Positions 1,358 to 21,800 of a stretch of 64,000 bases of DNA are shown piece after piece; positions within the stretch are counted from its first letter, which is position 1; each line of letters begins with the position of its first letter. The notes beneath the pieces were generated by a model that saw only the letters and a program-made list of their open reading frames with translations, was not told the DNA's origin and searched no databases. The stretch is taken from assembly GCF_000521215.1 (NCBI RefSeq), contig NZ_KI928922.1, forward strand, positions 182,357 through 246,356, in the 5' to 3' direction. A program made the translations under genes and the position numbers. The DNA comes from Labrenzia sp. DG1229 (GTDB taxonomy: Bacteria > Pseudomonadota > Alphaproteobacteria > Rhizobiales > Stappiaceae).

Positions 1358-1412
1358 CATCCGCCTCCCTCGGAAATCTGGTGCGCGTGAAAGGCGCGCA
1401 CCAGGTTTTTGG

Positions 1413-2309: not shown

Positions 2310-2371
2310 TTCTGGTCCTCCGGTAGGTTGATTTGACGGGTTGGTCCCGCTTGTATTTGGGTATCCGTTGA

Positions 2372-3481: not shown

Positions 3482-3597
3482 ATTTGTCCCTTTGATTTCG
3501 AAGACTTGAGACGCGGTTGTCACATTCAAGGGAAGCATGAACAGCCTTAATGCATATATCAAATTGATTGTTTAGATGTGTTCTATATACTGTATCT
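3482..3597. promoter_or_regulatory. Divergent promoter region of the phosphonate module, with palindrome
   Basis: This 116-nt gap separates the LysR gene from the divergent phosphonate operon. It holds the 11-nt inverted repeat ATCAAATTGAT at 3558-3568 in an AT-rich stretch, a plausible LysR-type binding core. TGTCACAT at 3518-3525 resembles a single Pho-box half-site, but I find no second copy at the right spacing. Confidence 0.45.
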
Positions 3598-6352: not shown

Positions 6353-6769
6353 TCAATCAACGTTTGTTCCATCGCTTGCCTGTGTCGACAGGCTTGCCAG
6401 ATAGGTCAGGATGAAGTCCTGCACCGTCCTGTCCGTTATCCCGACATGCCGCATTTTTGTACCCGGCAGAAACCCGGTGTTGTCCTCCATCCAGGCGCGC
6501 AGCGCAGCAGGTGTCCAGACAATTCCGGACGACGCCAGCGCCTCGGAATATTCGTAGTCCGGAAACGTTCCGGCGCCGCGGCCAATGACATTTTCAAGCG
6601 GGGGACCGTAACTCGGGTCGTTGGTGTCCGGAGCGTGGCAGCGCCGGCATTCCACCCTGTAGAGCATTTCTCCAGCCGTGATCTTGGCCTGCTCAAAAAC
6701 TTCGGATGCCTGGGCAGAATGCACAAAACCAAGCGTCATTGCTGCCAAAAGAAGGTTGCGGACCGACAT
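6353..6769 (-). CDS. Periplasmic class I c-type cytochrome
   Basis: A 138-residue secreted mono-haem cytochrome. GGAG precedes the ATG at complement 6767-6769. A signal peptide (LLLAAMTLGFVHSAQA) is followed by the single haem site CRRCH near residue 42 and a likely axial Met in GTKMRHVG near residue 105. It is divergent from the NosR-like gene and shares its control region, which carries an FNR-type box. It may carry electrons between the NosR-like complex or the PQQ dehydrogenase and the respiratory chain (inference). Confidence 0.85.
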   Translation of the reverse strand: MSVRNLLLAAMTLGFVHSAQASEVFEQAKITAGEMLYRVECRRCHAPDTNDPSYGPPLENVIGRGAGTFPDYEYSEALASSGIVWTPAALRAWMEDNTGFLPGTKMRHVGITDRTVQDFILTYLASLSTQASDGTNVD

Positions 6770-6825
6770 TCGTTTTCTCCTCTCGTAGAGTGAGAGGAGA
6801 AAACGACAGTCAAACCCGGGAAACG

Positions 6826-6839
6826 TTGATCTTGATCAA
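6826..6839. promoter_or_regulatory. FNR/Dnr-type box
   Basis: TTGATCTTGATCAA matches the FNR-family consensus TTGAT-N4-ATCAA exactly. It lies between the divergent cytochrome c gene (57 nt from its start) and the NosR-like gene (about 100 nt from its start), so either or both may respond to oxygen or nitric oxide through a CRP/FNR-family regulator. No such regulator is in the window. Confidence 0.7.
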
Positions 6840-6940
6840 GAAAATTCTTGGCCTTTCGTACAAGCAAAGACCGATCCGGAAGGCCGTCTTGATCTAAAGG
6901 ACAGTTGCGTCAGCTTTCGCCTGCGGAAAAACTGCCCTTC

Positions 6941-9034
6941 ATGGAGGAGATTCACAACAGGGCGCGTGAGATCGCCGGCGTGCTGGCGCGGCATTTGGCT
7001 TGCATGGTCACGGCACTCGTATTTGCGATGTCTGCCGGAAATGCGCTGGAACTGGAGCGCAATGAGGCCGCGCAATACATTCAACCACCCTATCAGTTGG
7101 GTGATCTGCTCGACGGAGGAATATACGAGCTGATCAACCTGGATGGCAGGGTTGCAGGGTATGCCTTCGAAACAACGCCGCTGGCCCCCCTTCCGGGCTT
7201 CTCGGGCGCCCCGATCAACCTGTTTGTCATATTGACCCTCGAAGGCCGGCTGATCGATGTCGATCTTGTTTCGCATAACGAACCGATTTTCGTGTCAGGG
7301 TTGGGAGAGGCTCCGTTTCAGGAGTTCATTGCCCAGTACAAGGGCTATTCCATCACCGATTCCCTGGTTATCGGCGTTCCCTACGGCGATGAAGGCAGCG
7401 GATCGTCGCTGGTTTATCTGGACGGCGTGACCAAGGCGACGGCGAGCGTGCGCATTGCGCACGAGACGCTTCTGGCGGCCGCATTCAAGGTTGCAAGAGA
7501 GAAGATCGAAGGAATTGGCGGCAGGGCGGCAGCCGAGCCCAACCTGGAGCACGCAGAGCAGCTGACCTGGGATGACATTGTCGAGGAAGGTCTCGTGGGC
7601 CGGCGGCTGGTGACCAATCGTGAGGTTGACGACGCCTTTGCCGATACCATCTGGGCAGACGACGACGAGCTGGCAAAAGACGAACCTGACGAGCCTTACC
7701 TTGATCTGTGGGTCATCGATATCGGACCACCGGCAATCGCCGAAGCCCTCCTTGAGCCGGACAGTCTGATCCAGTTGCGCAATTTTCAGGAGCTTTCACC
7801 GGAAGATGAACCGATCCTGGTGATCGACGCCGGTCGTCACGGACTGGTTACGGAGGATTTCGTGCGCAATACCAGCCCCGACCTGATCACGGCAAGTCAG
7901 GACGGGCTGCCGATCTCCCTGCGCGATGCCGATCTGGATATCGAATTGCTTGACGGGATACCGGGTGAAGTGGCCATGGTTCTGCGTACGGACCGCAGGC
8001 TTGGCTTCGATCCGACCAGCGACTGGTCCTTGTCGGTTCGTGCGACGCGCGAGCACGGGTCTTTCCGACCGGAAATCGGAACCGTCGACTTTGCCCTCAC
8101 TCACAAGACGGACGAACGTTTTTTCATCAGGGATGAACCTCCCGAACCGGTTCCGGTCTGGCGGCAGGCAATGCAGGCAAGATCGGGCGATCTTGTGGTA
8201 CTTGCCGGAGGCTTGGCCGCACTCGTGCCGTTGCTCTTGTTCGGCCAGTCCCGGTTGGCCGGATACCGGCACTACACGGCCATTCGACTGGTGATACTGG
8301 CAGGTGTGACCGGGTTTGTCGGCTGGTGGGGACAGGGACAGCTATCCATCGTCACGGCCCTCGGTGTGCTACGGGGTCTCTTCGAAGGACAGAGCCTGTC
8401 CTTCCTGCTCTACGATCCATTTTCGTTGCTGATCTGGGCAGTGGTCCTCGTGACATTCCTCGTCTGGGGTCGAGGCTTTTTCTGTGGCTGGATGTGTCCG
8501 TTTGGAGCGATGCAGGAATTCATGCATCATCTGGGTCGCCGCCTTCGCCTTCCGCAGATCCGAGTTCCGGACAGGATCGATCGTTGGCTGGTCAAGCTCA
8601 AGTATGTCATCCTTGCCGGCCTTGTTCTTCTGGCCTTTGTCGCGCCGGGTTACCTGGATGCTGCCGTCGAGGTTGAACCCTTCAAGACGGCGGTAACGAC
8701 CTTCTTCGTACGCGAATGGTATTTCGTTCTTTACTGCGTCGGTCTGCTTGTGTTGAGCACAATGGTGTTCAAGGGGTTTTGCCGCTACATCTGTCCGCTC
8801 GGGGCGGTGATGGCTATTGGCGGCTTTTTGCGCATCCGCGACTGGATCCCGCGCCGGGATGCCTGCGGCAGTCCATGCCAGCTTTGTCGCGTGAAGTGCA
8901 ATTACAACGCGATCAAACCGACCGGCGGCATTCGGTACGACGAGTGTTTCCAATGTCTTGATTGCGTGACCATCCATGATGACGATGCCCGGTGTGTTCC
9001 GCTTGTTCTTGCCAAAAGAGGGAGGCAGCTATGA
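6941..9034 (+). CDS. NosR/NirI-like membrane flavoprotein with polyferredoxin domain
   Basis: A 697-residue protein with NosR architecture: N-terminal signal/TM segment (residues about 20-37), periplasmic FMN-binding domain with the site region DGVTKATAS (161-169), further periplasmic domain, several TM helices from about residue 420, and cytosolic Fe-S motifs (CGWMCPFGA, CRYICPLGA, CGSPCQLCRVKC, CFQCLDC). The normal flavinylation motif has Gly where this one has Lys, but the acceptor Thr is kept. It overlaps apbE by 4 nt, as nosR-nosX pairs do. No nosZ is nearby, so the role is probably electron transfer across the membrane for another periplasmic enzyme. ATG 6941 is chosen; TTG 6905 and ATG 7004 are alternatives. 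Confidence 0.85.
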   Translation: MEEIHNRAREIAGVLARHLACMVTALVFAMSAGNALELERNEAAQYIQPPYQLGDLLDGGIYELINLDGRVAGYAFETTPLAPLPGFSGAPINLFVILTLEGRLIDVDLVSHNEPIFVSGLGEAPFQEFIAQYKGYSITDSLVIGVPYGDEGSGSSLVYLDGVTKATASVRIAHETLLAAAFKVAREKIEGIGGRAAAEPNLEHAEQLTWDDIVEEGLVGRRLVTNREVDDAFADTIWADDDELAKDEPDEPYLDLWVIDIGPPAIAEALLEPDSLIQLRNFQELSPEDEPILVIDAGRHGLVTEDFVRNTSPDLITASQDGLPISLRDADLDIELLDGIPGEVAMVLRTDRRLGFDPTSDWSLSVRATREHGSFRPEIGTVDFALTHKTDERFFIRDEPPEPVPVWRQAMQARSGDLVVLAGGLAALVPLLLFGQSRLAGYRHYTAIRLVILAGVTGFVGWWGQGQLSIVTALGVLRGLFEGQSLSFLLYDPFSLLIWAVVLVTFLVWGRGFFCGWMCPFGAMQEFMHHLGRRLRLPQIRVPDRIDRWLVKLKYVILAGLVLLAFVAPGYLDAAVEVEPFKTAVTTFFVREWYFVLYCVGLLVLSTMVFKGFCRYICPLGAVMAIGGFLRIRDWIPRRDACGSPCQLCRVKCNYNAIKPTGGIRYDECFQCLDCVTIHDDDARCVPLVLAKRGRQL

Positions 9035-9957
9035 ATCGGGGACGCCGCCGTTTCCTGACCATCATGGCGGGATGCGCCCTTGCGACGACAGGTTCAAGAC
9101 CAGCAACTGCCGAACCGGTCGTCTGGCGCGGAAGAGCGCTGGGAGCCGAGGCCCGTATTGAACTCTTCAGTACGGATAGCAATGAAGCAGAGCAGGCACT
9201 GACTGCTGCCCGTGACACGATCCTCCGGATGGAAAGGCACTTTTCGCTGTATCAAGCCGGTTCTGCACTCAATCGCCTGAACGCAGACGGCACGCTGCAG
9301 ATGCCACCGGAATTCGCCCGCCTGATCGGACATGTCGAGCGCATAAACCGGCAAACCGATGGCCTCTTCGATCCTACAATTCAGCCGCTCATGGTGGCGC
9401 AGGCCAGGCGCCCGAACGGCTTGACGCGCAGAGAACGGGATGCACTTGCACAACGGATTGGCTGGAACAAGGTGCGCAATCAATCGTCCCGACTGTCTTA
9501 TTCCGTTCCCGGCATGGCGATGACGATGAACGGTATTGCTCAGGGATTTGCAACGGATCGCACGAGTGAAGTGCTGCGCGCCCATGGCTTCGACCCTTAT
9601 CTGGTTCACATCGGCGAATACCGGGCAGGAGCACAGAGTGCACGCATTGGTGTGGCCGGTAAGAGGGGCAACATCGTGGACAGCATCGCTCTGAAGAACG
9701 CAGCCGTGGCAACATCCACGCCCTCCGGTACGCGGTTCAGCAATGGCAGCGGCCATATCATGCACCCGGATCTGACAGAGACTGAACCACGATGGCAATC
9801 GGTGAGCGTGCAGGCGGAAACGGCGACCTGGGCCGATGGCCTGTCGACAGCGCTCGCACTTGCAACGTCGAGGGAACTGGCCGAACAGTGCGTTGTTTCG
9901 GGAGCAGCTCAGGCGATCTGGCTGGAGGACCGTGACGGTTCGCTTGTCAGGATCTGA
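9031..9957 (+). CDS. FAD:protein FMN transferase, ApbE/NosX family
   Basis: A 308-residue periplasmic enzyme that covalently attaches FMN to Thr/Ser of FMN-binding domains. The N-terminus MNRGRRRFLTIMAG carries a twin-arginine-like RRRF signal. Family features seen are LNRLNADG, GLFDPTIQPL, and the substrate/metal segment MAMTMNGIAQGFATDRT followed by HIGEYRA (canonical forms use Gly-Asp there, so Glu is a small variation), plus ADGLSTAL. The ATG overlaps the NosR-like stop (ATGA), after GGGAGG. Its obvious client is the NosR-like FMN domain encoded just upstream. Confidence 0.9.
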   Translation: MNRGRRRFLTIMAGCALATTGSRPATAEPVVWRGRALGAEARIELFSTDSNEAEQALTAARDTILRMERHFSLYQAGSALNRLNADGTLQMPPEFARLIGHVERINRQTDGLFDPTIQPLMVAQARRPNGLTRRERDALAQRIGWNKVRNQSSRLSYSVPGMAMTMNGIAQGFATDRTSEVLRAHGFDPYLVHIGEYRAGAQSARIGVAGKRGNIVDSIALKNAAVATSTPSGTRFSNGSGHIMHPDLTETEPRWQSVSVQAETATWADGLSTALALATSRELAEQCVVSGAAQAIWLEDRDGSLVRI

Positions 9958-9983: not shown

Positions 9984-10901
9984 TCACCAGTCCGGTTTTG
10001 TGAACGTCAGTCCGTGGTCCTTGAATATGCGCGCCATCCGACCGTCTTCAACGGCGTAACGGATTGCGTCGTCGACCGCGTAGGAAAGGGGCCGCCAGTT
10101 GTGGCGAACGGCGACACCCAGGGTCCAGCTTGATCGTGCCAGGCCGGGAAAGGGCGGCAAGTGAACGGCGATGGCGTCGGTGAGGCCGTGTTCGATCTGT
10201 GAGAGCGGCGCCATCACGGCCATGACGTCACCTTCTGCAAGTGCTGCCATTGCATCGTCGGTGGTCGGAAAACGCCGCATGTTTGCAATAAGTTGCCCGC
10301 GCGCAAAACCGGAAAGATAGAAATCCGAGAGCGTGTCGTTTTCGACACCTACCGTGTCGAAGCGAAAATACGCCGGAACCGGTGGATCTTCAGGGTAATC
10401 GTCCTTCCGATAGGCTATCGCCATCTGCTCGTTGTAGTACTGGCCGTTAAGCACGACCATTTCGTTCCGGCAGCCGAGTTCCCGGTCATAGGGAACATGC
10501 AGCATGACATTCGCGATCTGCCCACCGATCAGTTTGCCGCGCCAGACATTGTTGCGCAGATCACCGTCAACATTTTCGTCGGCAGCGGTTGCGATAAATC
10601 GAGCATCGACCCCGAGGTCCTTTGCAATCAAGTGTCCGATGTCGATGTCGACACCTTTCAGAACACCTTTCTCTTCATACGAGAATGGCGGGAAGTCCTC
10701 GTAGACGGCTATCTTGATGAAGCCGCGTTCCTGGATGTCGTCCATGCTATGGCCGACAATGTCACGGCCCAAATTCTGCGGTTTGCGTTCCGCTTCATCA
10801 CCGAAACGGACATTTTCACAGTTTTGCGCAAAGGCCGCCGTGCCGGTCATGCAAAGCATGGCCAGAACGGCGGAAGCTACTTTCAAACCGGAGTGGAGCA
10901 T
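9984..10901 (-). CDS. XoxJ/MxaJ-like periplasmic protein of a PQQ dehydrogenase system
   Basis: A 305-residue periplasmic binding-protein-fold protein (signal peptide ending AFA-QN). It has the type 3 extracellular-binding signature IKIAVYEDFPPFSYEEKG and GVDIDIGHLIAKDLG (two parts), characteristic of the quinoprotein-associated binding proteins (MoxJ/XoxJ). Known members assist maturation or activation of PQQ alcohol dehydrogenases rather than importing a solute. Its ATG overlaps the stop of the upstream cytochrome c by one base, so they form a XoxG/XoxJ-like pair although separated by 8 kb from the dehydrogenase gene. Confidence 0.82.
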   Translation of the reverse strand: MLHSGLKVASAVLAMLCMTGTAAFAQNCENVRFGDEAERKPQNLGRDIVGHSMDDIQERGFIKIAVYEDFPPFSYEEKGVLKGVDIDIGHLIAKDLGVDARFIATAADENVDGDLRNNVWRGKLIGGQIANVMLHVPYDRELGCRNEMVVLNGQYYNEQMAIAYRKDDYPEDPPVPAYFRFDTVGVENDTLSDFYLSGFARGQLIANMRRFPTTDDAMAALAEGDVMAVMAPLSQIEHGLTDAIAVHLPPFPGLARSSWTLGVAVRHNWRPLSYAVDDAIRYAVEDGRMARIFKDHGLTFTKPDW

Positions 10902-11626
10902 TACTTGGCGGCCGACAATCCGATCGTGAGAATTTCTGCTGTTTTCTTGAGACTATCATCGGAACCATCCAAACGCAGCGCGGCGCGTGATGCAACAGAT
11001 TCAGCCCGCGGAGCACCCGAACCCGTTTCCAGTGAGTTTGCGATTTCTTCCATTTCAGTGCGAAGGGGTGCGATTGTGTCTTCGGCTTCCTCTGCCGGCA
11101 TTGCCTTTTCTGCAAGTTCCCTGACTACGTCCCGGATTGCTTTCAAGCGTTCTGAATAAGGATCAAGAGCACCTTCATCGGGCCTGGTCTCGACGTAAGT
11201 CCGGATAGCCCAGGCGGCTTCCTGTCCAAGCAGTTCACCGAAGGCCGGCATCTTGGTAACGCCGTTCTGGGTGTAACCATTCTGATACCGCTCCAGATAC
11301 CACTCGTCGCCAAAGTCATCGGCTTCCAGGTAGCGCAGGTCCGGGGCAAGGCCGCCGGAAATTACTTCGAGACCGTGGCAGCGTGCACAGTTCTGGTTGT
11401 AACCGGAGGCACCAACCTTGATCGCCAGGGCCCAGAACTCGCTGTCCGGGTCTCGCCAGGGGTTCTCGACCAGCCACTCTTCACCAAGGTCCGGAAGACC
11501 GGCCGTGTCGACGGCCTGCGGAGCGACATCTCCATGTGCTTCCACGCGTCCGATCGGATCCAGAGATGTCAGGGAAAGGGCAGTTCCTGCCGCAAGGATG
11601 CCCAGCATCCATTTGCGAAAATTCAT
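10901..11626 (-). CDS. Cytochrome c, PedF/c550-like, probable electron acceptor of the PQQ dehydrogenase
   Basis: A 241-residue secreted cytochrome c. The start at complement 11624-11626 gives a signal peptide (MNFRKWMLGILAAG...). A single haem site CARCH lies at residues 80-84 with a likely axial Met126 in TKMPAFG. After the haem domain there is an unusual 90-residue charged, probably helical C-terminal tail rich in Glu and Arg. Cytochromes of this kind in alcohol-oxidation clusters accept electrons from PQQ dehydrogenases. Divergent from the Lut/Ped-like operon and followed by the XoxJ-like gene. Confidence 0.85.
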   Translation of the reverse strand: MNFRKWMLGILAAGTALSLTSLDPIGRVEAHGDVAPQAVDTAGLPDLGEEWLVENPWRDPDSEFWALAIKVGASGYNQNCARCHGLEVISGGLAPDLRYLEADDFGDEWYLERYQNGYTQNGVTKMPAFGELLGQEAAWAIRTYVETRPDEGALDPYSERLKAIRDVVRELAEKAMPAEEAEDTIAPLRTEMEEIANSLETGSGAPRAESVASRAALRLDGSDDSLKKTAEILTIGLSAAK

Positions 11627-11790
11627 GATTTCTCTCCTCCCGAGATCGTCAAACTTAAATACGCACAGCTCGGACAGAGGCGCTATTGTACCAAGGGACA
11701 AGTCTCGTTTCCTTGCCTTGATGATCAGCCTCAGCCTAACCTGTGAGTTGTCCCGCGGATGCGCGTATTCGGACCAGGGAGCGAGGTTGA

Positions 11791-12963
11791 ATGTTTGTCA
11801 GGGTCATCGCGAATTACTTAGTGATATTATGGATTTGTTGCGGTGCAGCGTATGCGGATATGGCGGTTACAATCGGCTATCTGGAGCAGGTCGAGCCACA
11901 ACCTCCGGTGCTCTCCAACCTTGATCCGGTTCCGGAAAACGAGGGACTTGCCGGTGCTGAAGTTGGCCTAAAGGACAATGCCACCACAGGACGGTTTCTG
12001 AAGCAGACCTACGCTCTGGAGACCCGGATTGTCGCTGAAGGCGGAGACATCGAGAGTGCCGCGCGCGAGCTTCTGGCCGTGACACCGTTCCTGATTGTTA
12101 AGGCCCCTAAAAACCAGCTGCTTCGCGTGGCTGATCTGCCTGAAGCAGCAGGAGCCATCCTCTTCAACACGAGCGCTGGGGATACGGATCTCAGAGATGC
12201 ATCGTGCCGCGTCAACGTTCTTCACACGTTGCCGTCGAGGGCCATGCTGACAGACGCACTGGCGCAATTCGGTGTTCGCAAAAAATGGACGGACTGGGTC
12301 GTCGTCGCCGGTCCATATACTGCTGATCTGGCATTTGCCGATGCGATTGAGAATTCAGCACGCAAATTCGGCATCCGTATCCGTGAACGCAGGGTATGGG
12401 ACGTGAGTGCCGATTTGCGCCGCAGTGCGTTTCAGGAGCTTCCTCTCTTCACCCAGAATTTTCCGGAACATGATCTTCTGGTCGTCGCAGACGAAACCGA
12501 CGATTTCGGCAGATATGTTCCCTATAACAGCTGGGTACCCCGCCCGGTCGGCGGAACGGAGGGGATTGTGCCCGTCGCCTGGGACCGGACCGTGGAACAA
12601 TGGGGTGCCGCACAGTTGCAAAGTCGTTTTGAAAAGACTGCGGGCAGATCGATGAGGCCGGTTGACTACGCGGCATGGGCAGCAATGCGCGCGATAGGAG
12701 AGGCCGTCACGCGGACCAGCCAGGCTGATGCCGGCGCTGTCCGCGACTATCTGCTGTCCGGAAAATTCGAGCTTGCCGGGTTCAAGGGCAGGCCACTGAC
12801 ATTCCGGACGTGGAATGGTCAACTGCGTCAACCCATTCCGCTGGTAAACCCCCGGGCACTGGTGGCTCAAGCGCCGCTGGAGGGGTTCCTGCATCAACGA
12901 ACAGAGCTGGATACGCTCGGAATAGACGAGGCGGAAAGCGCCTGCACCGCGTTCAGGGAGTAA
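11791..12963 (+). CDS. Lut/Ped-type ABC substrate-binding protein (PQQ-ADH associated)
   Basis: A 390-residue periplasmic protein (signal peptide VILWICCGAAYA) of the branched-chain-amino-acid-binding fold, matching the family that co-occurs with PQQ alcohol dehydrogenases. It starts the five-gene operon 11791-15918. In Methylorubrum (lut) and Pseudomonas (ped) comparable ABC systems are tied to lanthanide-dependent growth. That gives a likely role in metal or metal-complex handling here, by homology of context only. I see IGYLEQVEPQPP near the start of the mature protein and a middle domain AGPYTADLAFADAIE. Confidence 0.82.
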   Translation: MFVRVIANYLVILWICCGAAYADMAVTIGYLEQVEPQPPVLSNLDPVPENEGLAGAEVGLKDNATTGRFLKQTYALETRIVAEGGDIESAARELLAVTPFLIVKAPKNQLLRVADLPEAAGAILFNTSAGDTDLRDASCRVNVLHTLPSRAMLTDALAQFGVRKKWTDWVVVAGPYTADLAFADAIENSARKFGIRIRERRVWDVSADLRRSAFQELPLFTQNFPEHDLLVVADETDDFGRYVPYNSWVPRPVGGTEGIVPVAWDRTVEQWGAAQLQSRFEKTAGRSMRPVDYAAWAAMRAIGEAVTRTSQADAGAVRDYLLSGKFELAGFKGRPLTFRTWNGQLRQPIPLVNPRALVAQAPLEGFLHQRTELDTLGIDEAESACTAFRE

Positions 12964-12966
12964 AAC

Positions 12967-13938
12967 ATGCGCATCTTGTGGCAAATCACCGGACTTGCGA
13001 TCGGGATGGGGCTTTCCATCGCGACCGCTGACGAGATCTGGGTTTCCAATGAAAAGGACGATACGATCAGTGTGATAGATATCGATACGCTCGAAGTCAC
13101 ACGCACGATAGACGTCGGTGAGCGCCCGCGCGGAATCGCGTTCGCCATTGATCATTCCGTTTTGTATCTGTGCGCGTCCGATAGTGACACAGTGCAGGTC
13201 ATAGACCCGAAAACCGGCAAGATCCTGCATGAATTGCCATCAGGAGAGGATCCTGAGCAGTTCGTTTTGCATCCGGACGGCAAGCATCTGTACATCGCCA
13301 ACGAGGATGACGCGATCACCACGGTAGTGGATACCGATACACGCAAGGTCATAGCTCAGATCGACGTCGGTATCGAGCCGGAGGGCATGGCGGTGTCGCC
13401 GGACGGAGACATCGCGATCACGACATCCGAAACCACCAACATGGCTCACTGGATCGACACCGGGACCCAGGAGCTCTTTGCCAACACCATCGTCGACCAG
13501 CGCCCACGCCATGCAGAATTCACCCACGACGGATCCGAGTTGTGGGTGAGTTCGGAAATTGGCGGCACGATCACCGTCTTTAACCGCGAAAACCAGCAGG
13601 AAAAGGCCAAGATCGAATTCGAAATCCAGGGCATCCATCCGGATCGTGTCCAGCCTGTCGGCTTTGAAATGACCCGGGACGGTCAACACGTCTTCGTTGC
13701 CCTTGGGCCGGCAAATCACATCGCTGTTGTTGATCCGGAAACCTACGAAGTGACCGACTACATCCTTGTCGGCCGGCGCGTCTGGCACATGGCCTTCAAC
13801 GGTGACGAAAGCCTGCTCTTCACCACCAATGGTGTGTCGGGCGACGTGACCGTGATCGACGTGAAAAATCTTGAACCCATCAAGAGCATCAAGGTCGGCC
13901 GTTTCCCATGGGGTGCGGCTTACCGGCCGACAAACTGA
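12967..13938 (+). CDS. YVTN-family beta-propeller protein (PQQ-ADH associated)
   Basis: A 323-residue secreted protein built of repeating YVTN blades: DTISVIDIDTLEVTRTIDVG, DTVQVIDPKTGKILHELP, TVVDTDTRKVIAQIDVG, VTVIDVKNLEPIKSIKVG and others, about seven in all. The short N-terminal hydrophobic stretch is a signal peptide (IGMGLSIATA-DE). Family members accompany PQQ-linked catabolism; a lanthanide- or cofactor-related role is suspected but not shown. Only 3 nt separate it from the binding-protein gene, so it is translated in the same operon. Confidence 0.85.
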   Translation: MRILWQITGLAIGMGLSIATADEIWVSNEKDDTISVIDIDTLEVTRTIDVGERPRGIAFAIDHSVLYLCASDSDTVQVIDPKTGKILHELPSGEDPEQFVLHPDGKHLYIANEDDAITTVVDTDTRKVIAQIDVGIEPEGMAVSPDGDIAITTSETTNMAHWIDTGTQELFANTIVDQRPRHAEFTHDGSELWVSSEIGGTITVFNRENQQEKAKIEFEIQGIHPDRVQPVGFEMTRDGQHVFVALGPANHIAVVDPETYEVTDYILVGRRVWHMAFNGDESLLFTTNGVSGDVTVIDVKNLEPIKSIKVGRFPWGAAYRPTN

Positions 13939-13958
13939 GTTCAACCGGGAGGAAACAC

Positions 13959-14411
13959 ATGAAAATTCTATTGGCCTGCATCACGACCCTTTCCATCCTG
14001 ACAGCACCCGTTCTTGCCGACGGCGACGATGACGACAACGCGCCGACATTCGGATCGGCCGGCATTCTGTCGCGTGATAACCGGGAAGATCTTGCGCCGC
14101 TGACGCTGTCTTCCGGAATGCCACTCAACGAAAGCGGCAAGCTGGAATTGAAATCAGGGACCTACTACGAGATCGAAATCGAAGCGGACGGCAGCCAGGA
14201 ACTTGCGCTCGCCGGGGCCGGCTTTTTCCGGGCCATCTGGATAGACGAGATCGTGATTGAAGGAATCGAGATCCGCCCGCTTGGCGTCGACAGTCTTGAG
14301 TTTGACGAGGCAGGAACCCTGGAGATCAGTTTTCTGGCCATCAAACCCGGGACCTATGATTTTGGTGTTCCAGGCAGCGACCTGCAGAACGTGGAGATAA
14401 CCATCAAGTGA
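13959..14411 (+). CDS. Small secreted acidic protein of the Lut/Ped-like operon
   Basis: A 150-residue protein with a signal peptide (LACITTLSILTAPVLA) directly followed by a DGDDDDN acidic run, then a beta-rich domain ending in a KPGTYDFGVPGSD-like strand that recalls cupredoxin-type folds, but I see no complete Cys/His/Met copper site. GGGAGG precedes ATG 13959. The acidic run could bind cations, and the place in the operon between the propeller and the ATPase suggests a periplasmic helper. Function unknown. Confidence 0.7.
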   Translation: MKILLACITTLSILTAPVLADGDDDDNAPTFGSAGILSRDNREDLAPLTLSSGMPLNESGKLELKSGTYYEIEIEADGSQELALAGAGFFRAIWIDEIVIEGIEIRPLGVDSLEFDEAGTLEISFLAIKPGTYDFGVPGSDLQNVEITIK

Positions 14412-15130
14412 CATCCGGCCTGGATGTTCGGGGCATCACGCACCGATACGGCAAGAAGACCGCCCTGAACGACATCGGTTTTTCCCTTGATAAGGGATTG
14501 TTTTGTGCTCTTCTCGGACCCAATGGTGCGGGGAAGAGCACATTGTTCTCGATCCTGACGCGCCTGTTCGTGCCGGATGCCGGGGAAGTCATGGTCGATG
14601 GCCATTCACTGGCCCGTGAACCGGGCAAGGCTCTTGCCAGGATCGGGGTCGTGTTTCAGCAACCGACGCTTGATCTCGATCTTACGGTCCGGCGGAACCT
14701 GAAATATTTCGCCGCCCTGCACGGTCTTGCCGGCAAGGATGCCGACAGGAGGATTGAAACGTCGCTGGAGCAGGTGAATATGGCGGAACGCGCCGCCGAA
14801 AAGGTTCGCGCCCTCAATGGCGGGCACAGGCGCCGAATGGAAATCGCCCGAGCCCTGCTTCATGGTCCTGCGGTTCTCCTGCTGGACGAGCCGACCGTCG
14901 GCCTCGATGCTGAGACTCGGAGTTCGATCACGGGTCACGTTCACAACCTTGCAAGCGAACAGGGCCTGACGGTGCTTTGGGCGACCCACCTGGTTGATGA
15001 AGTCAGGGGGAGCGATCATCTTGTCGTCCTGCACCGGGGAAAAATTCATGCAAATGGAAATGCTGCCGAGATAGCGGGAGATGTCTCTTTGCAGACGCGG
15101 TTTCTGGAGATGACCGGAGGTGGCAAATGA
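14408..15130 (+). CDS. ABC transporter ATP-binding protein, Lut/Ped type
   Basis: A 240-residue ATPase with Walker A GPNGAGKST (about residues 37-45), Q-loop VVFQQP and Walker B VLLLDEPTVGLDAE. The signature motif reads LNGGHRRR instead of LSGGQ, a departure typical of this PQQ-associated subfamily rather than a mutation, as neighbouring motifs are intact. GTG 14408 overlaps the preceding stop (GTGA). It pairs with the permease at 15127, resembling DrrA/DrrB-like exporters, so transport direction is uncertain. Confidence 0.87.
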   Translation: MTSGLDVRGITHRYGKKTALNDIGFSLDKGLFCALLGPNGAGKSTLFSILTRLFVPDAGEVMVDGHSLAREPGKALARIGVVFQQPTLDLDLTVRRNLKYFAALHGLAGKDADRRIETSLEQVNMAERAAEKVRALNGGHRRRMEIARALLHGPAVLLLDEPTVGLDAETRSSITGHVHNLASEQGLTVLWATHLVDEVRGSDHLVVLHRGKIHANGNAAEIAGDVSLQTRFLEMTGGGK

Positions 15131-15918
15131 AGGCTGCCCTGATTTGCCTTGTTGCGATCGTTCACCGCGAGGCGCTGCGGTTCGTTTCGCAGCGCGGCCG
15201 CTTCCTTGCCGCGATTGTCCGGCCCCTTGTCTGGCTCATCGTGTTTGCCGCAGGGTTCAGGGCCGCTCTCGGCCTTTCCATTCAGCCGCCTTACCAGACC
15301 TACATCACGTATGAAATCTATATCGTTCCGGGTCTTTGCGGCATGATACAGCTCTTCTCGGGAATGCAGTCGTCGCTCAGTCTCGTCTATGACCGCGAGA
15401 TGGGGTCAATGCGTCTGTTGCTGACCAGTCCGATCCCGCGTTGGTGGCTGCTCTTCTGCAAACTCTTCGCCAGCACGGCGATTTCCATCTTTCAGGTCTA
15501 CACCTTCCTGGCGATCGCCGCGCTCACGGGGATCGGTTTTTCTCCTGCCGGTTATCTTGCAATCCTGCCGGCGCTCATTGTCAATGGACTGATGCTTGGT
15601 GCGTTGGGACTGTTGCTGTCGAGTACCATCAGGCAGCTGGAAAATTTCGCCGGTGTGATGAACTTCGTCATCTTCCCGATGTTTTTCCTGTCAACGGCAC
15701 TCTATCCTCTTTGGAAAATGGCGGAAGCCTCGACCATCTTGCGCGACATCTGTGCCTTCAATCCGTTTTCGCATGGCGTCGAATTGATCAGGTTCGCGCT
15801 CTATGGTCAGGTTGACTGGATGGCGCTCCTCTGGGTGCTGTTGGCATTCGCCATATTCCTATCGGGCAGTCTTTGGGGGTATGATCCTTCGCGCAGCATG
15901 GTCAGGCGGAAAGCGTGA
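15127..15918 (+). CDS. ABC-2-type permease, Lut/Ped type
   Basis: A 263-residue integral membrane protein with six hydrophobic segments, and the ABC-2 motif region GMQSSLSLVYDREMGSMRLLL (in two parts) followed by PRWWLL. The C-terminus is cytosolic and basic (SMVRRKA). ATG 15127 overlaps the ATPase stop. ABC-2 permeases usually export, while the operon also has a binding protein, so this family's direction is debated; in ped/lut clusters it supports lanthanide-related growth. Confidence 0.85.
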   Translation: MKAALICLVAIVHREALRFVSQRGRFLAAIVRPLVWLIVFAAGFRAALGLSIQPPYQTYITYEIYIVPGLCGMIQLFSGMQSSLSLVYDREMGSMRLLLTSPIPRWWLLFCKLFASTAISIFQVYTFLAIAALTGIGFSPAGYLAILPALIVNGLMLGALGLLLSSTIRQLENFAGVMNFVIFPMFFLSTALYPLWKMAEASTILRDICAFNPFSHGVELIRFALYGQVDWMALLWVLLAFAIFLSGSLWGYDPSRSMVRRKA

Positions 15919-15955: not shown

Positions 15956-16504
15956 ATGAAACGCATTGTTGCTACGATATTGCTTGTCGCAGGCGTCCAT
16001 GGTGCAGGAGCGCTGGCCGAAGAGGTCGATACCGGTGGAACCCTCAACCCCGACGAAATGAGCCTGAACCGGTCCATTGCCGAAGCGCTGGACGGCAATG
16101 TCGACATGGTCGTCTGCGCACAGGGCTACCTGATGACCAAGAAGGGTGATCATGAAGCCGCGCGCAAGATCTTCCAGGCCTGCGCCGAAAAAGGCTGGAC
16201 GGGAACGATGACCTGGATGGCCTACATGGATCAGAACGGGCTCGGCAAAACGGAAGATCCGGAAGCGGCCGCTGCCTGGGACAGGAAGGCGGCCGAAGCC
16301 GGTGACCCGGTCGGACAGTTCAACTACGGGCTGGATCTGCTGCGTGGTTATGGCGTCGATCAGGACCTTGATCTGGGCAGGAGATTTATCGATCGTTCGG
16401 CGGAACAGGGGTTTGAAACGGCCAGGGAACTGAAGCGTGAAGGCTATGACTGGAAGGCTGTCACTCCAGACGCGGATGAATGGAAATTCCAGCGGGTCTA
16501 TTAG
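15956..16504 (+). CDS. Secreted Sel1/TPR-like repeat protein
   Basis: A 182-residue protein with a signal peptide (ATILLVAGVHGAGALA) and Sel1-like repeats: DHEAARKIFQACAEKGWTG, DPEAAAAWDRKAAEAGDP, and DLGRRFIDRSAEQG. GGAGCCGGGA precedes ATG 15956. Such solenoids mediate protein contacts, here in the periplasm beside the PQQ system. It ends 3 nt into the convergent ABC ATPase stop, giving a 4-nt tail-to-tail overlap. Confidence 0.75.
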   Translation: MKRIVATILLVAGVHGAGALAEEVDTGGTLNPDEMSLNRSIAEALDGNVDMVVCAQGYLMTKKGDHEAARKIFQACAEKGWTGTMTWMAYMDQNGLGKTEDPEAAAAWDRKAAEAGDPVGQFNYGLDLLRGYGVDQDLDLGRRFIDRSAEQGFETARELKREGYDWKAVTPDADEWKFQRVY

Positions 16505-17115
16505 GACAAACCGGAAGGAAGCCTTGTTTGCGACAGGTTCGCGGGCTGCCCGTGCAACAGGTAGACCGAACTGGCAAGTCTGCTCGCCTCGTGCTCTGAG
16601 TGAGTAACCAGAAGCGTTGCAATGGAAGCATCCGCCAATAGCTCAAGCGTCAATGCGATCATGTCGTTCGCAAGGCTCTTGTCCAGGGAGGCGAAAGGTT
16701 CGTCCATAACGAGGAATTGCGGCTTGGCGGCAAACGCGCGTGCGAGAGACAGGCGTCGCCTTTGGCCCAAGGACAACTGGTCGGGCAGACGGTCGGCCTT
16801 CCCGTCCAGTCCAACCCGCACGAGGGCTTCTTTCACCGACGCGTCAGAGGCACCTGTGATCAGGCGTATGTTGTCTCCCGCAGTTCTCCACGGCAGGAGA
16901 GTCGGTTCCTGAAAGACCATCGAAATGCGCTCCGGTCGCGTGACGTGACCGTCGAATTCCGGATCAAGACCTGCTGCAATCCGAAGCAGGGTCGTCTTGC
17001 CTATTCCGGAAGGACCCAGCACAGCGACACACTCGCCGGATGCTATTTCCAGGCAAACGTTACCCAGAACCGGCTGATCTCCGTAGGACTTGCCTTTGAT
17101 TCCTATCCCGATCAT
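16501..17115 (-). CDS. NitT/TauT-type ABC transporter ATP-binding protein
   Basis: A 204-residue ATPase: Walker A GPSGIGKTT, Q-loop MVFQEPTLLPWR, signature LSLGQRRRL (again not LSGGQ) and Walker B FLVMDEPFASLDK, with switch His in LLVTHSEHEA. It is shorter than nitrate/taurine relatives (about 250) because the C-terminal extension is missing. The start at complement 17113-17115 overlaps the permease stop (ATGA). It is the last gene of the transporter divergent from the PQQ dehydrogenase. Confidence 0.86.
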   Translation of the reverse strand: MIGIGIKGKSYGDQPVLGNVCLEIASGECVAVLGPSGIGKTTLLRIAAGLDPEFDGHVTRPERISMVFQEPTLLPWRTAGDNIRLITGASDASVKEALVRVGLDGKADRLPDQLSLGQRRRLSLARAFAAKPQFLVMDEPFASLDKSLANDMIALTLELLADASIATLLVTHSEHEASRLASSVYLLHGQPANLSQTRLPSGLS

Positions 17116-17888
17116 GCGCGGCGCCACCGGCTTGCGCGGCGTTCCCAGGGTTGAAGGACTGCAAATTCGATCGTCAGCATGACAGCGATGAACGACAGGG
17201 CATAAGTCAGCACCATGGCCACATCGAACAGCTGGAAATAGAGATGGATCTGAAAGCCAACACCATTGGATCTCCCGAGAAACTCGACGACCAGAACAAT
17301 CTTCCAGATCAAGGCAGTACCGGTGCGTGCACTGGCAGCAAAAAACGGCGCCAGTTGCGGGACGATGATATGGCGCAGCCGCGTTAGTCGGGGAACCCTG
17401 AATATCCGGGACATGTCATCGAGCGCGGGATCGAATGTCCGCGCTCCTTCGCGGATCAACACTGTCACCATCGGGATCTTGTTGATTGCGACAGCGGTTA
17501 TGGCAGCAACTTCCGTGAGACCGATCCAGAGATAGCAAAGTACGATCGTCACCAGCGCGGGAAGGTTCAGGAAAAACAGCAGCCAGGGGTCGAACCAGGT
17601 ATCCACGGACTTGCGTCGGCCCATCAGAAGCCCGATTGCGGTTCCAATCGCCATGGCCAGAATGAAGGCCGCCACTACCCGGCCCAGGGTGATGCCGAGA
17701 TGGTAGAGCAGAGGTCCGGCGAACAGCTCCTTGAAGGTGAGTCTGCCGATTTCGAGCGGCGAGGGGAGTGTTTCCGGGTCGGCCAGGGCAGCGGCAAAAA
17801 CCGACCAAACCATGATGAGCAGACCCAGCGAGACCAGTCTTGTCCTTATGGAGCCGGCGACCCGCGGATCAGCCTTCCGGGATGACAA
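17112..17888 (-). CDS. NitT/TauT-type ABC transporter permease
   Basis: Integral membrane subunit of about 258 residues with six hydrophobic segments and the EAA loop EGARTFDPALDDMSRIFRV (family form EAARTL...). No ATG exists at the N-terminus. TTG at complement 17886-17888 has an ideal GGAGG spacing and overlaps the end of the binding-protein gene, so I use it; GTG 17894 and TTG 17924 are alternatives. Forms one ABC system with its neighbours on both sides. Confidence 0.84.
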   Translation of the reverse strand: MSSRKADPRVAGSIRTRLVSLGLLIMVWSVFAAALADPETLPSPLEIGRLTFKELFAGPLLYHLGITLGRVVAAFILAMAIGTAIGLLMGRRKSVDTWFDPWLLFFLNLPALVTIVLCYLWIGLTEVAAITAVAINKIPMVTVLIREGARTFDPALDDMSRIFRVPRLTRLRHIIVPQLAPFFAASARTGTALIWKIVLVVEFLGRSNGVGFQIHLYFQLFDVAMVLTYALSFIAVMLTIEFAVLQPWERRASRWRRA

Positions 17889-18846
17889 AAACACCCTCCG
17901 GCAAGGTTGTTGCGGAGCCGACAAGTTTTTCGCCGCCCAATCGTGCCATCACCTCGAGCATGCGTTCCGCCTGCTCCTCGTTAACGGGTCCAAGAGCTGG
18001 AATCCCGGCAATGAAGCCGGTTTTCAACGCCTCGAAGTCGGCATCTGTTTTTGCACGCATCAGCGGCCGGATGCGGTCAAAGGCCTGCGGGTCGGTTGCA
18101 AGAATATCCTTGGCCCCTCTCGAGGCGGCCATGAAACCGCGAACGAGATTTGGGCGTTCCCTGAGCATGTCACCGTGGAAAACATAGCCGAGCAGTGGTG
18201 TCTCCGGATCGAGCCCGAGCGCCTTCGCGGCGTCTGAAACCGAGATCAGCTCACGCATGCCCTTGGCTTTCATCTTGGCTGCAAAGTGCCAGAAATTGAT
18301 GGCCCCGGCTGTTCTTCCTGCGAGCGCATTCTTGAAGATCAGAGGAGGTGCGCCGAATACCTGCTCGGTCTCGGCGGCAAGATCCATTCCATATTCCTGT
18401 TCGGCATAGGCCCTCAGGATCAGCCAGCTCTTGTCAACCGGGCCACCTGCGATGCCGATCTTCTGTCCGGCCAGATCTTTCAGGGTCTTCGCGTCGCTGT
18501 CTCCGGATATCATCAGGCCTCCGACGGCCTTCGAATAGGGTACAAAAACATAGTCGTGCCCGTCTGCTCGCTGCCTGGCAACCCAGAGCCAGTCAGCAAC
18601 GACGATGTCGGCTTCCCCTCCCTGAAAGGCAATGCGTGTTGCCGGATTTCCTGCCAGACCCATAACTTCCAGTTGAAAGCCGTTCTGGGTGTCCAGGCCA
18701 TTGTGCTGGATCGTGTCGAGCTCCCAGTTGACGGTGCCGACCTTCAGCACTGCTGCCTTGAGGGGGGGTGTCTCTTCGGCGTTGGCCGCAAAATTGAGCG
18801 TCAGACACCATATGCTGACCGCCACCAGTCTCATGAGCCGATGCAT
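17869..18846 (-). CDS. NitT/TauT-type periplasmic substrate-binding protein
   Basis: A 325-residue binding protein of the sulfonate/nitrate/taurine class. GGGAGG lies 5 nt before the ATG at complement 18844-18846; a signal peptide ends ANA-EE. The mature part has KVGTVNWELDTI, GGEADIVVADWLWVARQRADG (two parts) and AGGPVDKSWLILRAYA. Ligand cannot be read from sequence. Since it is head-to-head with the lanthanide-type PQQ dehydrogenase, import of a cofactor, chelate or alcohol-related compound is a reasonable but unproven idea. Confidence 0.84.
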   Translation of the reverse strand: MHRLMRLVAVSIWCLTLNFAANAEETPPLKAAVLKVGTVNWELDTIQHNGLDTQNGFQLEVMGLAGNPATRIAFQGGEADIVVADWLWVARQRADGHDYVFVPYSKAVGGLMISGDSDAKTLKDLAGQKIGIAGGPVDKSWLILRAYAEQEYGMDLAAETEQVFGAPPLIFKNALAGRTAGAINFWHFAAKMKAKGMRELISVSDAAKALGLDPETPLLGYVFHGDMLRERPNLVRGFMAASRGAKDILATDPQAFDRIRPLMRAKTDADFEALKTGFIAGIPALGPVNEEQAERMLEVMARLGGEKLVGSATTLPEGVFVIPEG

Positions 18847-19190
18847 GATTTCCTCCCGATACAATTTTCAGTCAGCTTAGCAGGCACGCACCAGCAATGA
18901 ATTCGACTTTCGGTCGGATCTGGCACGATGTTGGCTGAACGTGACGCTTCGTCATGTTTAGTCAAGTTCACGTTATTATACCGACGCCTTCCGGTGGAGC
19001 AGGATTTTCGAGTTGCTGCACTGCACCCTGTCAAAATTGCAGAATTCCGCGATTTCCAAGGTGCACTATGGTGCAATTCTCGTGTGCGAACCTTTCCTCT
19101 AGACTGCAAATCTGGGAGGAAGCGGCTATGTGTGGCGATCCGCATGCCGGACACGTCGCTCTGTCCGAACTTAACCTGGGAGGAGACAGG
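18847..19190. promoter_or_regulatory. Divergent promoter region, PQQ dehydrogenase / ABC transporter, with GGTGCA repeats
   Basis: No gene lies in these 344 nt. GGTGCA occurs at 19060-19065 and again at 19070-19075 as a direct repeat with a 10-nt period, and its complement TGCACC at 19022-19027. This helical spacing suits dimer binding by a LuxR-type response regulator such as the one encoded at 21072. The ribosome site GGGAGGAGA precedes the dehydrogenase ATG. Confidence 0.5.
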
Positions 19191-20954
19191 ATGAGGAAGT
19201 TTATCGCAATGGCAGCGGTCAGCGCACTCGCGATGACCGGGGCACACGCCGACGTCACTGAAGAGGATCTGGCAAAGGATCAGGCGACGACTGACAGTGT
19301 TCTGACCAATGGCATGGGGCGGGACCAGCAGCGGTTCTCACCATTGAAAATCATCAACAAGGACAATGTTCAAAATGTTGTTCCGGCGTGGGCATTTTCC
19401 CTCGGAGGCGAGAAGCAACGCGGCCAGGAAACACAACCTCTGATTTATGACGGCGTGATGTATATCACCGGGTCCTATTCGCGTCTCTACGCGATTGACG
19501 TCAAGACCGGAGAAGAGATCTGGCAGTACGATGCCCGCCTTCCAGAAGGTATCCTGCCCTGCTGCGATGTGGTCAACCGCGGCGCGGCCATCTACGGCGA
19601 CAAGATATATTTCGGAACACTCGACGCACGTATCGTGGCGCTCGATCTCAAAACCGGAGATGTGGTCTGGCGCAAGAAAATCGCGGATTACAAGGCCGGT
19701 TATTCTTACACGGCCGCACCCGTGATCGTGAACGGTCTGATTGTCACCGGCAATTCCGGCGGTGAATTCGGTATCATCGGAGAAGTGCAGGCCCGCGATG
19801 CGGAAACCGGTGAACTGGTCTGGACCCGTCCGGTCATCGAAGGTCACATGGGGACCTTCAAGGGCGAAGACAGCACATTGACGGGTACGCTCAACGCGAC
19901 CTGGCCAGGTGATCTCTGGAAAACCGGTGGCGGTGCAACGTGGCTCGGCGGAACCTATGATCAGGACACCAACACGCTGGTCTTTGGCGCGGGTAACCCG
20001 GCTCCATGGAACAGCTGGCTTCGTGCTGCGGGCAATCCGAGCGGAACAGAAGGAGACAATCTCTATGCCGCTTCGCGGATCGGGATCAATCCGGAAAACG
20101 GCGATATCAAGTGGCACTACCAGACGACCCCACGAGAAGGCTGGGACTTCGATGGTGTGAACGAGGTAATCCCCTTTGTGGATGCAAGCGGCAACAAGCG
20201 GTATGCGACCGCGGACCGGAACGGATTTTTTTATATCCTGAACCGTGACGACGGCGCCTTCGTCAATGCCTGGCCATTCGTCAGTCAGATCAGCTGGGCG
20301 GATGGTATCGGGGAAGACGGCCGTCCGAAATTTAACGAAGACAACCGCCCGGGCGACCCCAGCAAGGCAGCTGACGGCAAGAAAGGTGAAGTGGTCTTTG
20401 CTGTTCCATCGTTCCTCGGAGGCAAGAACTGGATGCCGATGGCGCATAACCCGGATACGGGTCTCTTTTATGTGCCTTCGAACGAGTGGGGAATGGATAT
20501 CTGGAACGAGCCCATCTCCTACAAGAAGGGTGCGGCCTATCTCGGGTCCGGATTTACCATCAAGCCCATCTTCGAGGATCACATAGGGTCCCTGAAGGCG
20601 ATCGATCCGAATACCGGGGACATCAAGTGGGAGTACAAAAACAACGCTCCCCTTTGGGGCGGTGTCATGACCACGGCCGGTGGGCTGGTCTTTACCGGTA
20701 TGCCTGAAGGCCAGTTCAAGGCTTTTGATGCTGACACGGGCAAGGAGCTGTGGTCTTTCCAGACGGGGTCCGGGATCGTTGGCCAGCCGATTACATGGGA
20801 CATGGATGGCGAGCAATACATCGCCGTAGCTTCCGGCTGGGGCGGTGCGGTGCCGCTCTGGGGCGGCGAAGTCGCCAAGAAGGTGAACTACCTGAACCAG
20901 GGTGGCTCGATCTGGGTGTTCAAGCTGCCAAAGCAGCTGGCATCGTCGAACTAA
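19191..20954 (+). CDS. PQQ-dependent alcohol dehydrogenase, lanthanide type (ExaF/XoxF-like)
   Basis: A 587-residue periplasmic quinoprotein (signal peptide ending AHA-DV) that oxidises primary alcohols to aldehydes with PQQ. Propeller W-motifs recur through the chain. Vicinal cysteines CC lie at 124-125, a metal-ligand Glu in SGGEFGIIG near 192, the metal-ligand Asn in GAGNPAPWN at about 269, and the catalytic Asp in GWDFDG at 319. The residue two further, Asp321, is the extra carboxylate that distinguishes lanthanide enzymes (XoxF, ExaF, PedH) from calcium enzymes (Ala/Ser there). GGGAGGAGA precedes ATG 19191; longer upstream starts lack a signal peptide. Ethanol-type substrate preference is more likely than methanol but not decided. 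Confidence 0.9.
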
Positions 20955-20997: not shown

Positions 20998-21071
20998 ATC
21001 CGTCTTTGGCGCGAAATTACGCGCGAAGAACCTGTCGGTACCCATCGTCCGAAGCCGGGAGGAAAAGGATC

Positions 21072-21800
21072 ATGTCAATTGAGACTGACGGCGCAAACAA
21101 GTTCCTGATCATCGATGATCATCCCTTGTTTCGAGAGGCTCTGCACAGCGCCGTGGAGCTGGCCTATCCCAACTCGGACACGCTTGATGCGGCGTCGCTG
21201 GACGATGCCTGCGAGTTCCTGGATCACGATTCAGGCTTTGACCTCGCACTTCTTGACCTGTCCATCCCCGGTGTCAAAGGCATGGACGGACTATTGCATC
21301 TCAGGACCCATTATCCGCGGCTTCCGGTTGTCGTGGTTTCAGGCGCGGAAGATCCGCCCATCATTGCCCAGGCCATGGCCTACGGCGCAGCGGGATTTGT
21401 TCCAAAGTCATCGAAAAAGACAACGCTGGCGCAGGCTATACAACAGGTCATGAATGGTGCCACTTATCTACCGGAGAACTATAATGACACCGATGATGAA
21501 CCGATTGACGATCAGACCCGGAAAATGATCGCGCGACTGTCCAGTCTGACACCGCAGCAGATCCGGGTATTGCAAATGATCTGCAGCGGGTTGCTCAACA
21601 AGCAGATTGCCTATGAGCTCCAGGTCGGTGAAACAACAGTCAAGGCGCACGTCTCGGAAATCCTGCGCAAGTTGTGTGTTTCAAGCAGGACGCAGGCGGT
21701 GATCGAGGTCAAGAAACTCGAAGCTCTGGGGACCGCGGATCCCTTCGACACAAACGCTACGGCTGATCCCGGACTGAGACCGCTCAGGCGTCACAGCTGA
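21072..21800 (+). CDS. NarL/LuxR-family response regulator (AgmR/ExaE-like)
   Basis: A 242-residue regulator: receiver domain with acidic pocket IIDDHP (14-17), phosphoacceptor Asp62 in LLDLSIP and Lys112 in FVPKSS, then a C-terminal LuxR HTH (LTPQQIRVLQMIC to LRKLCVSSRTQAV). It directly follows the PQQ dehydrogenase, and related regulators (AgmR, ExaE, ErcA-type systems) control quinoprotein alcohol oxidation. Its sensor kinase is not in the window. ATG 21072 follows GGGAGGAAAAGG. Regulation of the dehydrogenase promoter is inferred. Confidence 0.9.
   Translation: MSIETDGANKFLIIDDHPLFREALHSAVELAYPNSDTLDAASLDDACEFLDHDSGFDLALLDLSIPGVKGMDGLLHLRTHYPRLPVVVVSGAEDPPIIAQAMAYGAAGFVPKSSKKTTLAQAIQQVMNGATYLPENYNDTDDEPIDDQTRKMIARLSSLTPQQIRVLQMICSGLLNKQIAYELQVGETTVKAHVSEILRKLCVSSRTQAVIEVKKLEALGTADPFDTNATADPGLRPLRRHS

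Follow-up and report, generated by a model that had tools for sequence, protein, structure and literature searches.

A NosR-type protein and its ApbE flavin transferase are tied to a PedH-like PQQ dehydrogenase and the cytochrome PedF

The DNA analyzed here is a 64,000-nucleotide stretch (the window) of contig NZ_KI928922.1 of Labrenzia sp. DG1229, and our subject is a gene pair within it encoding a 697-residue NosR-type protein (6941..9034, plus strand), hereafter the NosR form, and an ApbE flavin transferase (9031..9957, plus strand). The stop codon of the first gene overlaps the start of the second by the four bases ATGA (9031-9034). The transferase is NosX-like, has a twin-arginine N-terminus (RRRFL), matches Pfam ApbE at E 5.5e-40 and counts ApbE structures such as 5mgy among its PDB relatives. 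A gene for a small c550-like c-type cytochrome (cytA, 6353..6769, minus strand) diverges from the NosR form on one side and a pyrroloquinoline quinone (PQQ) dehydrogenase cluster lies on the other, an arrangement that had been put forward in the initial annotation and that our family scans confirmed. That cluster includes the cytochrome c550 PedF (10901..11701, minus strand) and a PedH-like PQQ alcohol dehydrogenase (18954..20954, plus strand), and we are highly confident that the NosR form and its ApbE are tied to these two partners.

The best NCBIfam model for the NosR form was NF046105 NosR, which covered residues 65-693 and scored 457 bits against the curated cut-off of 1000 that delimits NosR proper; Pfam Fer4_5 was also matched, as was the NapH/MauN model of NCBIfam in the C-terminal part. 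A hydrophobic segment (residues 11-29) is followed by a periplasmic RnfG/NqrC-like flavin mononucleotide (FMN) domain and then by four more hydrophobic segments, with the cysteine motifs CGWMCP and CRYICPLG and two C-terminal cysteine groups. A periplasmic FMN domain ahead of a NapH-like polytopic iron–sulfur (Fe-S) domain is what marks the NosR/NirI family in its broad sense, and the window protein has both. In an alignment of paralogs, two rows of which (L018 and L029) are wrong frames, CGWxCP, CRYxCPLG and both C-terminal cysteine groups were preserved in the window protein, and they were invariant in alignment A1. The predicted fold was of low confidence. Orthologs with 58-97% identity were found in 10 of the 44 other genomes of the genus, and a locus of Roseibium album (L037) has 97% identity in the NosR form.

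The partner dehydrogenase (searched against the PDB with the sequence from 19146) was nearest to the PedH structures 6zcv and 6zcw, which we take to be of the lanthanide type. Its metal-site motif GWDFDGVNE aligned with AWDFSGNNE in 1flg, presumably a calcium-type enzyme, and it carries the extra Asp two residues past the catalytic Asp that distinguishes the lanthanide type; vicinal cysteines (PCC) are also present. Among the NosR loci 20 dehydrogenase frames were recovered, and the 14 in which the site could be seen all read GWD[FY]DGV, the other six being short frames without it. The partner dehydrogenases are therefore predicted from these motifs to be PedH-like, with a lanthanide-type metal site. 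PedF was recognized by TIGR04494 (184 bits) over residues 50-175 of 266 only, and its start is perhaps at 11626. An alignment of tails showed that its C-terminus is extended by 80-90 residues, the last of which read TIGLSAAK (10904..11176, minus strand).

One line of evidence for the partnership is co-occurrence. Our main sample consisted of 295 genomes from a single family (presumably Rhodobacteraceae), with most genera represented once, of which 60 carried the NosR form, 59 PedF (defined as a TIGR04494 match), 90 TIGR03863 and 76 nosZ. Both the NosR form and PedF were present in 57 genomes, the NosR form only in three, PedF only in two and neither in 233 (Fisher p 1.3e-54; here and below the test treats genomes as independent and uses no species tree). 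The corresponding numbers for the NosR form and TIGR03863 were 56, 4, 34 and 201 (p 1.7e-31). Two of the three genomes with the NosR form only are 81-84% complete and the third, G490, is 95% complete; as for PedF only, G615 is a 73%-complete assembly and G472 has a calcium-type dehydrogenase site. The two genes lay within 20 kb of each other in 44 of the 57 genomes, farther apart on the same contig in six, and on different contigs in seven, a number that includes some contig-edge cases. The linked and unlinked states interchanged 11 times on the NosR tree, or six times when five contig-edge genomes were left out (8 unlinked of 51). At E 1e-130 the NosR form was found in only 4 of 385 alphaproteobacterial genomes.

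Gene order gave the same picture. The order NosR form, ApbE, solute-binding protein, PedF, TIGR03863, TIGR03866 recurred, and among the stretches of the 58 family-set loci 50 contained ApbE, 39 PedF and 38 TIGR03863; a few of the loci represent the same genome from two collections (L049/L059 and L044/L069). A PedF or TIGR03863 gene stood in the stretch in 18 of 22 loci obtained by a scan of genome contigs, and neither was found in those of L050, L053, L054 and L057, the last of which is only 5 kb long. The conserved co-location with lanthanide PQQ dehydrogenases for which the initial annotation had proposed a search is thus real, given the 57 of 60 carriers with PedF and the recurring gene order, and the lack of synteny with PQQ genes that was to count against the idea was not seen. 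A CoxL-like molybdenum oxidoreductase gene was found in 18 of the 58 family-set loci, and where its position was inspected such CoxGSLM-like genes (e.g. L046:12974-17289) lay between the NosR form/ApbE pair and the solute-binding protein.

Of the PQQ clusters that have TIGR03863 and no NosR form, we fetched 20 from the 34 such genomes, and PedF was absent from all 20. Seventeen of their 18 dehydrogenase frames read EWD[FY]DG and scored 288-322 bits to the window enzyme, and the other (L141) scored 426 bits and had neither the GWD nor the EWD pattern; we call these dehydrogenases XoxF-type, a label taken from motif and score and not from a family-library scan. In the 74 distinct PedF proteins of the fetched loci the heme motif and the chain end are 152-178 residues apart, and 69 of them ended in GLS followed by small hydrophobic or Ser/Thr residues, with small variants in four and a diverging end in L151, the calcium-type case. 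The PedF proteins of genomes G137, G255, G324 and G261, which belong to other lineages, had only 71-77 residues past the heme motif and lacked the extension. G261 has a NosR form of another family (f54, described below) and no PedF tail, and G615 has the tail, with no NosR form found in its incomplete assembly.

The pair is distinct from the NosR that serves NosZ. No NosZ was found among the window proteins scanned (positions 605-23112), in line with the initial annotation, which had reported no nosZDFYL beside the pair. That annotation had also named a nosZ operon just outside the window using the pair as the finding that would speak against it; instead, the sole nos_propeller match of the genome is on a different contig, C40, together with its own canonical NosR, which is 33% identical to the window copy. 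In the 295 genomes nosZ and the NosR form were both present in 17, the NosR form only in 43, nosZ only in 59 and neither in 176 (p 0.62). We therefore rejected the idea of a NosZ-serving or relic pair, given the separate nosRZ on C40 and the lack of association with nosZ. A NosR-family tree of 54 rows, which was a quick tree without bootstrap and carried a program warning of long branches meeting between groups, set apart the 31 PQQ-type rows, the 15 NosR rows and the 4 NirI rows, each by a branch of its own (Shimodaira–Hasegawa-like approximate likelihood ratio test, SH-aLRT, 100, 97 and 100), with the window protein outside the nosZ-type clade. An identity as NirI was likewise rejected because the four NirI copies, which lie near cytochrome cd1/nor-like genes (as judged visually from protein starts and heme motifs), form another clade and have Arg in the flavinylation motif. 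The neighboring ApbEs grouped by type as well: in their tree 24 PQQ rows came together with a support of 87 (not starred), 13 NosX rows with 99 and five f54 rows with 98, NirX being represented by one row. Three of the 16 nosZ loci and three of the 4 NirI loci yielded no ApbE. One genome, G062, has all three NosR-type/ApbE pairs (L120, L125 and L180).

In comparison with the NosR-NosX system of nitrous oxide respiration, the window pair has the same domain order, Fe-S cysteines, position of the FMN site and partner ApbE, but differs in its motif (DG[VI][TSA]K[AG]T here versus DIISGAT there), in being 33% identical to the NosR that the same genome encodes and in having no nosZ nearby. NirI-NirX is comparable in that a NosR relative is used for another periplasmic enzyme, with its own ApbE visible in one of the four NirI loci, but has the motif DVI[SA]RAT and a separate clade. 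Weaker relatives of the NosR form were found in the other family, f54, in 8 of 82 genomes; five loci were fetched (L115-L118 and L124), and the four included in the tree fell outside the 31 PQQ-type rows. The f54 relative adjoins ApbE, a TIGR03863-like gene also occurs in three of the five loci, and the motif, where read, is DGVAKAT or DGVTKAT. In the f54 genome G261 the PedF-PedH genes are ~16 kb from the NosR relative.

The putative FMN site of the window protein reads D161-G-V-T-K-A-T167 (DGVTKAT). Measured against the ApbE motif D-x-x-[S/T]-G-A-[S/T], it retains the Asp, the Thr, the Ala and the linking Thr, and has Lys in place of the usual Gly. This Lys at motif position 5 (D-G-x-x-K-[AG]-T) was found in 57 of the 58 family-set loci; the search pattern gave no match in L104 of that set or in L116 of f54, and L054, a PQQ-type locus outside the family set, has Thr at this position. 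All 16 nosZ-linked copies read DIISGAT and all four NirI copies DVI[SA]RAT, and two NosR-like copies outside these 16, L023 and L026, read KIISGAT. We rejected the Lys as a mark of the oxidase direction, because NirI, which lies beside a reductase, has Arg at the same position. Position 5 (Gly, Arg or Lys) may serve as an address that matches each protein to its own ApbE; there would then be at least three parallel NosR-family transmembrane flavin modules with their own periplasmic enzymes (NosZ, nitrite reductase and PedH), and the PedF tail would dock the cytochrome or the dehydrogenase to the PQQ-type module, thereby connecting the quinone pool with lanthanide-dependent oxidation of alcohols. 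We offer this larger scheme tentatively, and as one that we would sooner doubt than rely on.

The remaining genes of the cluster are as follows. A periplasmic solute-binding protein (Pfam SBP_bac_3; 9984..10901, minus strand), presumably XoxJ/PedG-like, adjoins PedF in related loci. On the plus strand are an ATP-binding cassette (ABC) substrate-binding protein associated with PQQ alcohol dehydrogenases (11791..12963; TIGR03863, 489 bits), a PQQ-associated beta-propeller protein (12967..13938; TIGR03866, 519 bits), a small conserved cluster protein without a family match (h13, 13908..14411), the ABC ATPase of the PQQ alcohol dehydrogenase system (14408..15130; TIGR03864, 342 bits), a PedC-type ABC permease (15127..15918; TIGR03861, 421 bits) and, past the dehydrogenase, an ErdR/NarL-type response regulator (21006..21800; NF041830, 219 bits versus a cut-off of 390). 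The family scan assigned 16501..18864 (minus strand) to an SsuABC-like transporter. In 34 of the 58 family-set loci the stretch contains a gene related to that of its permease, mostly directly upstream of the NosR form. For cytA the Pfam Cytochrom_C match (E 3.8e-4) was barely above the cut-off and the CycA-like NCBIfam match (59.6 bits) was under its cut-off of 240; in some other genomes its relative sits near the PQQ dehydrogenase and not the NosR form. Adjoining the PQQ cluster, at 605-4491, are phosphonate-type ABC genes (PhnC and PhnD), a LysR regulator of the aminoethylphosphonate-associated kind and a PsrA-type iron alcohol dehydrogenase. In gammaproteobacterial loci (L053:14271-18075, L056:12821-14155 and L058:6076-7455) an aldehyde ferredoxin oxidoreductase-like gene and a multi-cluster Fe-S protein lie near the NosR form, which suggests that product aldehydes are handled next door there. 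A secreted protein of ~198 residues without an NCBIfam match also recurs near the clusters (L056:12001-12591, and in L045, L047, L048, L053, L057 and L058).

The FNR/NNR-type palindrome TTGATCTTGATCAA (6826..6839) lies in the interval that separates cytA from the NosR form, and nothing else in the window matches perfectly. The perfect FNR-type box of the initial annotation is indeed there, but it tells us little about NosR forms of this kind at large. Of 88 related loci, six had TTGAYnnnnRTCAA without a mismatch at the corresponding position, compared with 0.06 expected from base shuffles (L054 and L109 gave no anchor and were dropped). All six are Roseibium loci with a divergent cytA, and L043-L045, L060 and L069 have the divergent cytA but no box. 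We therefore rejected the box as a general feature.

The general idea of such a flavinylated conduit is known. Passages of Meheust et al. 2021 (eLife, PMC8238504) describe flavinylated NapH-like proteins beside ethanol oxidases (exaA) in 172 genomes, in associations said to have arisen several times, and propose that these proteins carry the electrons of the alcohol oxidase, standing in for cytochrome c. The view in the initial annotation that this is a use not classically described for NosR has to be given up to that extent. As outlined in those passages, the clusters share with ours an FMN-binding, NapH-like membrane Fe-S protein, ApbE, a PQQ alcohol oxidase and the proposed role; they differ in that here PedF is kept, the dehydrogenase has a lanthanide-type site and the NosR forms sampled fall into one clade with the Lys motif, a clade that some of the 172 genomes may also hold. 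What is added here is the definition of this family and its tight pairing with a lanthanide-type dehydrogenase. Among the literature matches listed, judged by title and the start of the abstract and with preprints and most subscription papers outside the set, no other paper described a pairing of NosR with a PQQ dehydrogenase, and neither NosR nor ApbE occurs in the main text of PMC11996626 or PMC5934484. The ped cluster of Pseudomonas (PedH, PedF and PedG) resembles the present one in its PedH-like dehydrogenase, PedF and solute-binding protein, and differs in that passages of a 2026 review of that cluster (PMC12997753), through which the comparison was made, mention no NosR, flavin or ferredoxin.

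We propose, with confidence poised evenly between acceptance and doubt, that the NosR form and its ApbE constitute a third NosR-type module, distinct from NosR (for NosZ) and NirI (linked to nitrite reductase), that is dedicated to a PedH-type lanthanide dehydrogenase and PedF, carries attached FMN and exchanges electrons across the membrane. ApbE would attach FMN to Thr167 in the periplasmic domain, as the motif and fold suggest, and this FMN would exchange electrons with PedH, PedF or both in the periplasm, while the NapH-like part in the membrane, which bears the cysteine clusters, would relay electrons to or from the quinone/Fe-S side. The NosR form would work in addition to cytochrome c, not instead of it, with the cytochrome as a parallel path. 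The proposal builds on the observed gene content, clade, motif and co-occurrence; flavinylation, the passage of electrons through the NosR form and their direction are inferred, the first two by analogy from knowledge of the family. Flow from alcohol to the quinone pool appears somewhat more likely than the reverse because alcohol oxidation would make sense of that direction. The membrane-periplasm conduit for alcohol oxidation suggested in the initial annotation is thus favored by the PQQ co-location, the lack of a link to nosZ, the lanthanide-type enzyme and the conserved Fe-S and FMN-site residues, and its flow of electrons from alcohol to the membrane should be read conditionally.

Several points weigh against this proposal. 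The FMN of related proteins has a potential of about -200 mV, compared with about +90 mV for PQQ and about +280 mV for c550; on these values PQQ or c550 would not readily pass electrons to an FMN of such low potential, and outward flow would be favored. By analogy, too, characterized NosR probably acts in the direction of the periplasm. The stretches of 8 of the 58 family-set loci (three cut at a contig edge) and of 7 of the 22 contig-scan loci (L042, L053, L054, L056, L057, L058 and the cut L055) yielded no ApbE. PedF occurred in 6 of 250 alphaproteobacterial genomes, and because three of them (G137, G255 and G324) lack the NosR form despite a lanthanide-type enzyme beside PedF, the NosR form is a lineage-specific near-constant partner and not a general requirement of PedH-PedF. 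The predicted attachment of FMN needs proof given the Lys in place of Gly, a change from Gly to Ala already halving the flavinylation of one model protein in a passage of PMC12052999. Electrons may instead pass from quinol or a cytosolic reductant through the Fe-S centers to FMN, so as to reduce or re-activate PedH or PedF, in the manner proposed for NosR and NosZ. This direction, which is that proposed for NosR in parts of PMC12052999 and PMC7660919, would agree with the near-constant retention of the NosR form with PedF and with the partnership of NosR and NirI with other periplasmic enzymes, but NosR-less PQQ clusters and some PedH-PedF genomes do without the NosR form and PedH is not known to require electrons of low potential, so we consider such reductive support possible, if on the whole unlikely.

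The other explanations appear weaker still. That the protein senses the redox state of the periplasm or of quinone and controls expression of the PQQ cluster is improbable. A regulatory role was the first proposed for NosR and NirI, NCBIfam names the family a transcriptional regulator and a response regulator gene lies within the cluster, but there is no DNA-binding domain in the family scans and the redox residues are conserved. Sections of PMC7660919 can be cited on both sides, with a Paracoccus nosR deletion that lost copper-responsive nosZ transcription (NosR may be multifunctional) and a nosX deletion that cut nosZ expression just twofold at sufficient copper and not significantly without it. 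The model of Meheust et al., in which the flavinylated protein takes the place of cytochrome c as acceptor for the alcohol oxidase, has been advanced in part of PMC8238504 for related clusters; simple replacement does not fit here because PedF is retained (57 of 60 NosR-form genomes), and with a second cytochrome often present as well we consider it very improbable. Least credible, to the point that we give it hardly any weight, is a former nos or nir fragment hitch-hiking near the PQQ cluster: membership of the NosR family and the presence of nosRZ in the same genome are compatible with this, but the separate clade with its own ApbE group, the conserved residues and the co-retention of the NosR form and PedF even when unlinked are not what a passive neighbor would show.

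The NosR form described here, as a third module proposed beside NosR and NirI, is a defined family with sharp predictions, and across a large marine group it tracks the lanthanide-type dehydrogenase and PedF in a nearly one-to-one manner. Naming such copies NosR because they are similar would exaggerate the capacity for nitrous oxide reduction. A passage of PMC12997753 states that the terminal acceptor of PedF in Pseudomonas putida is unknown, and a membrane partner for PedF would bear on that question.

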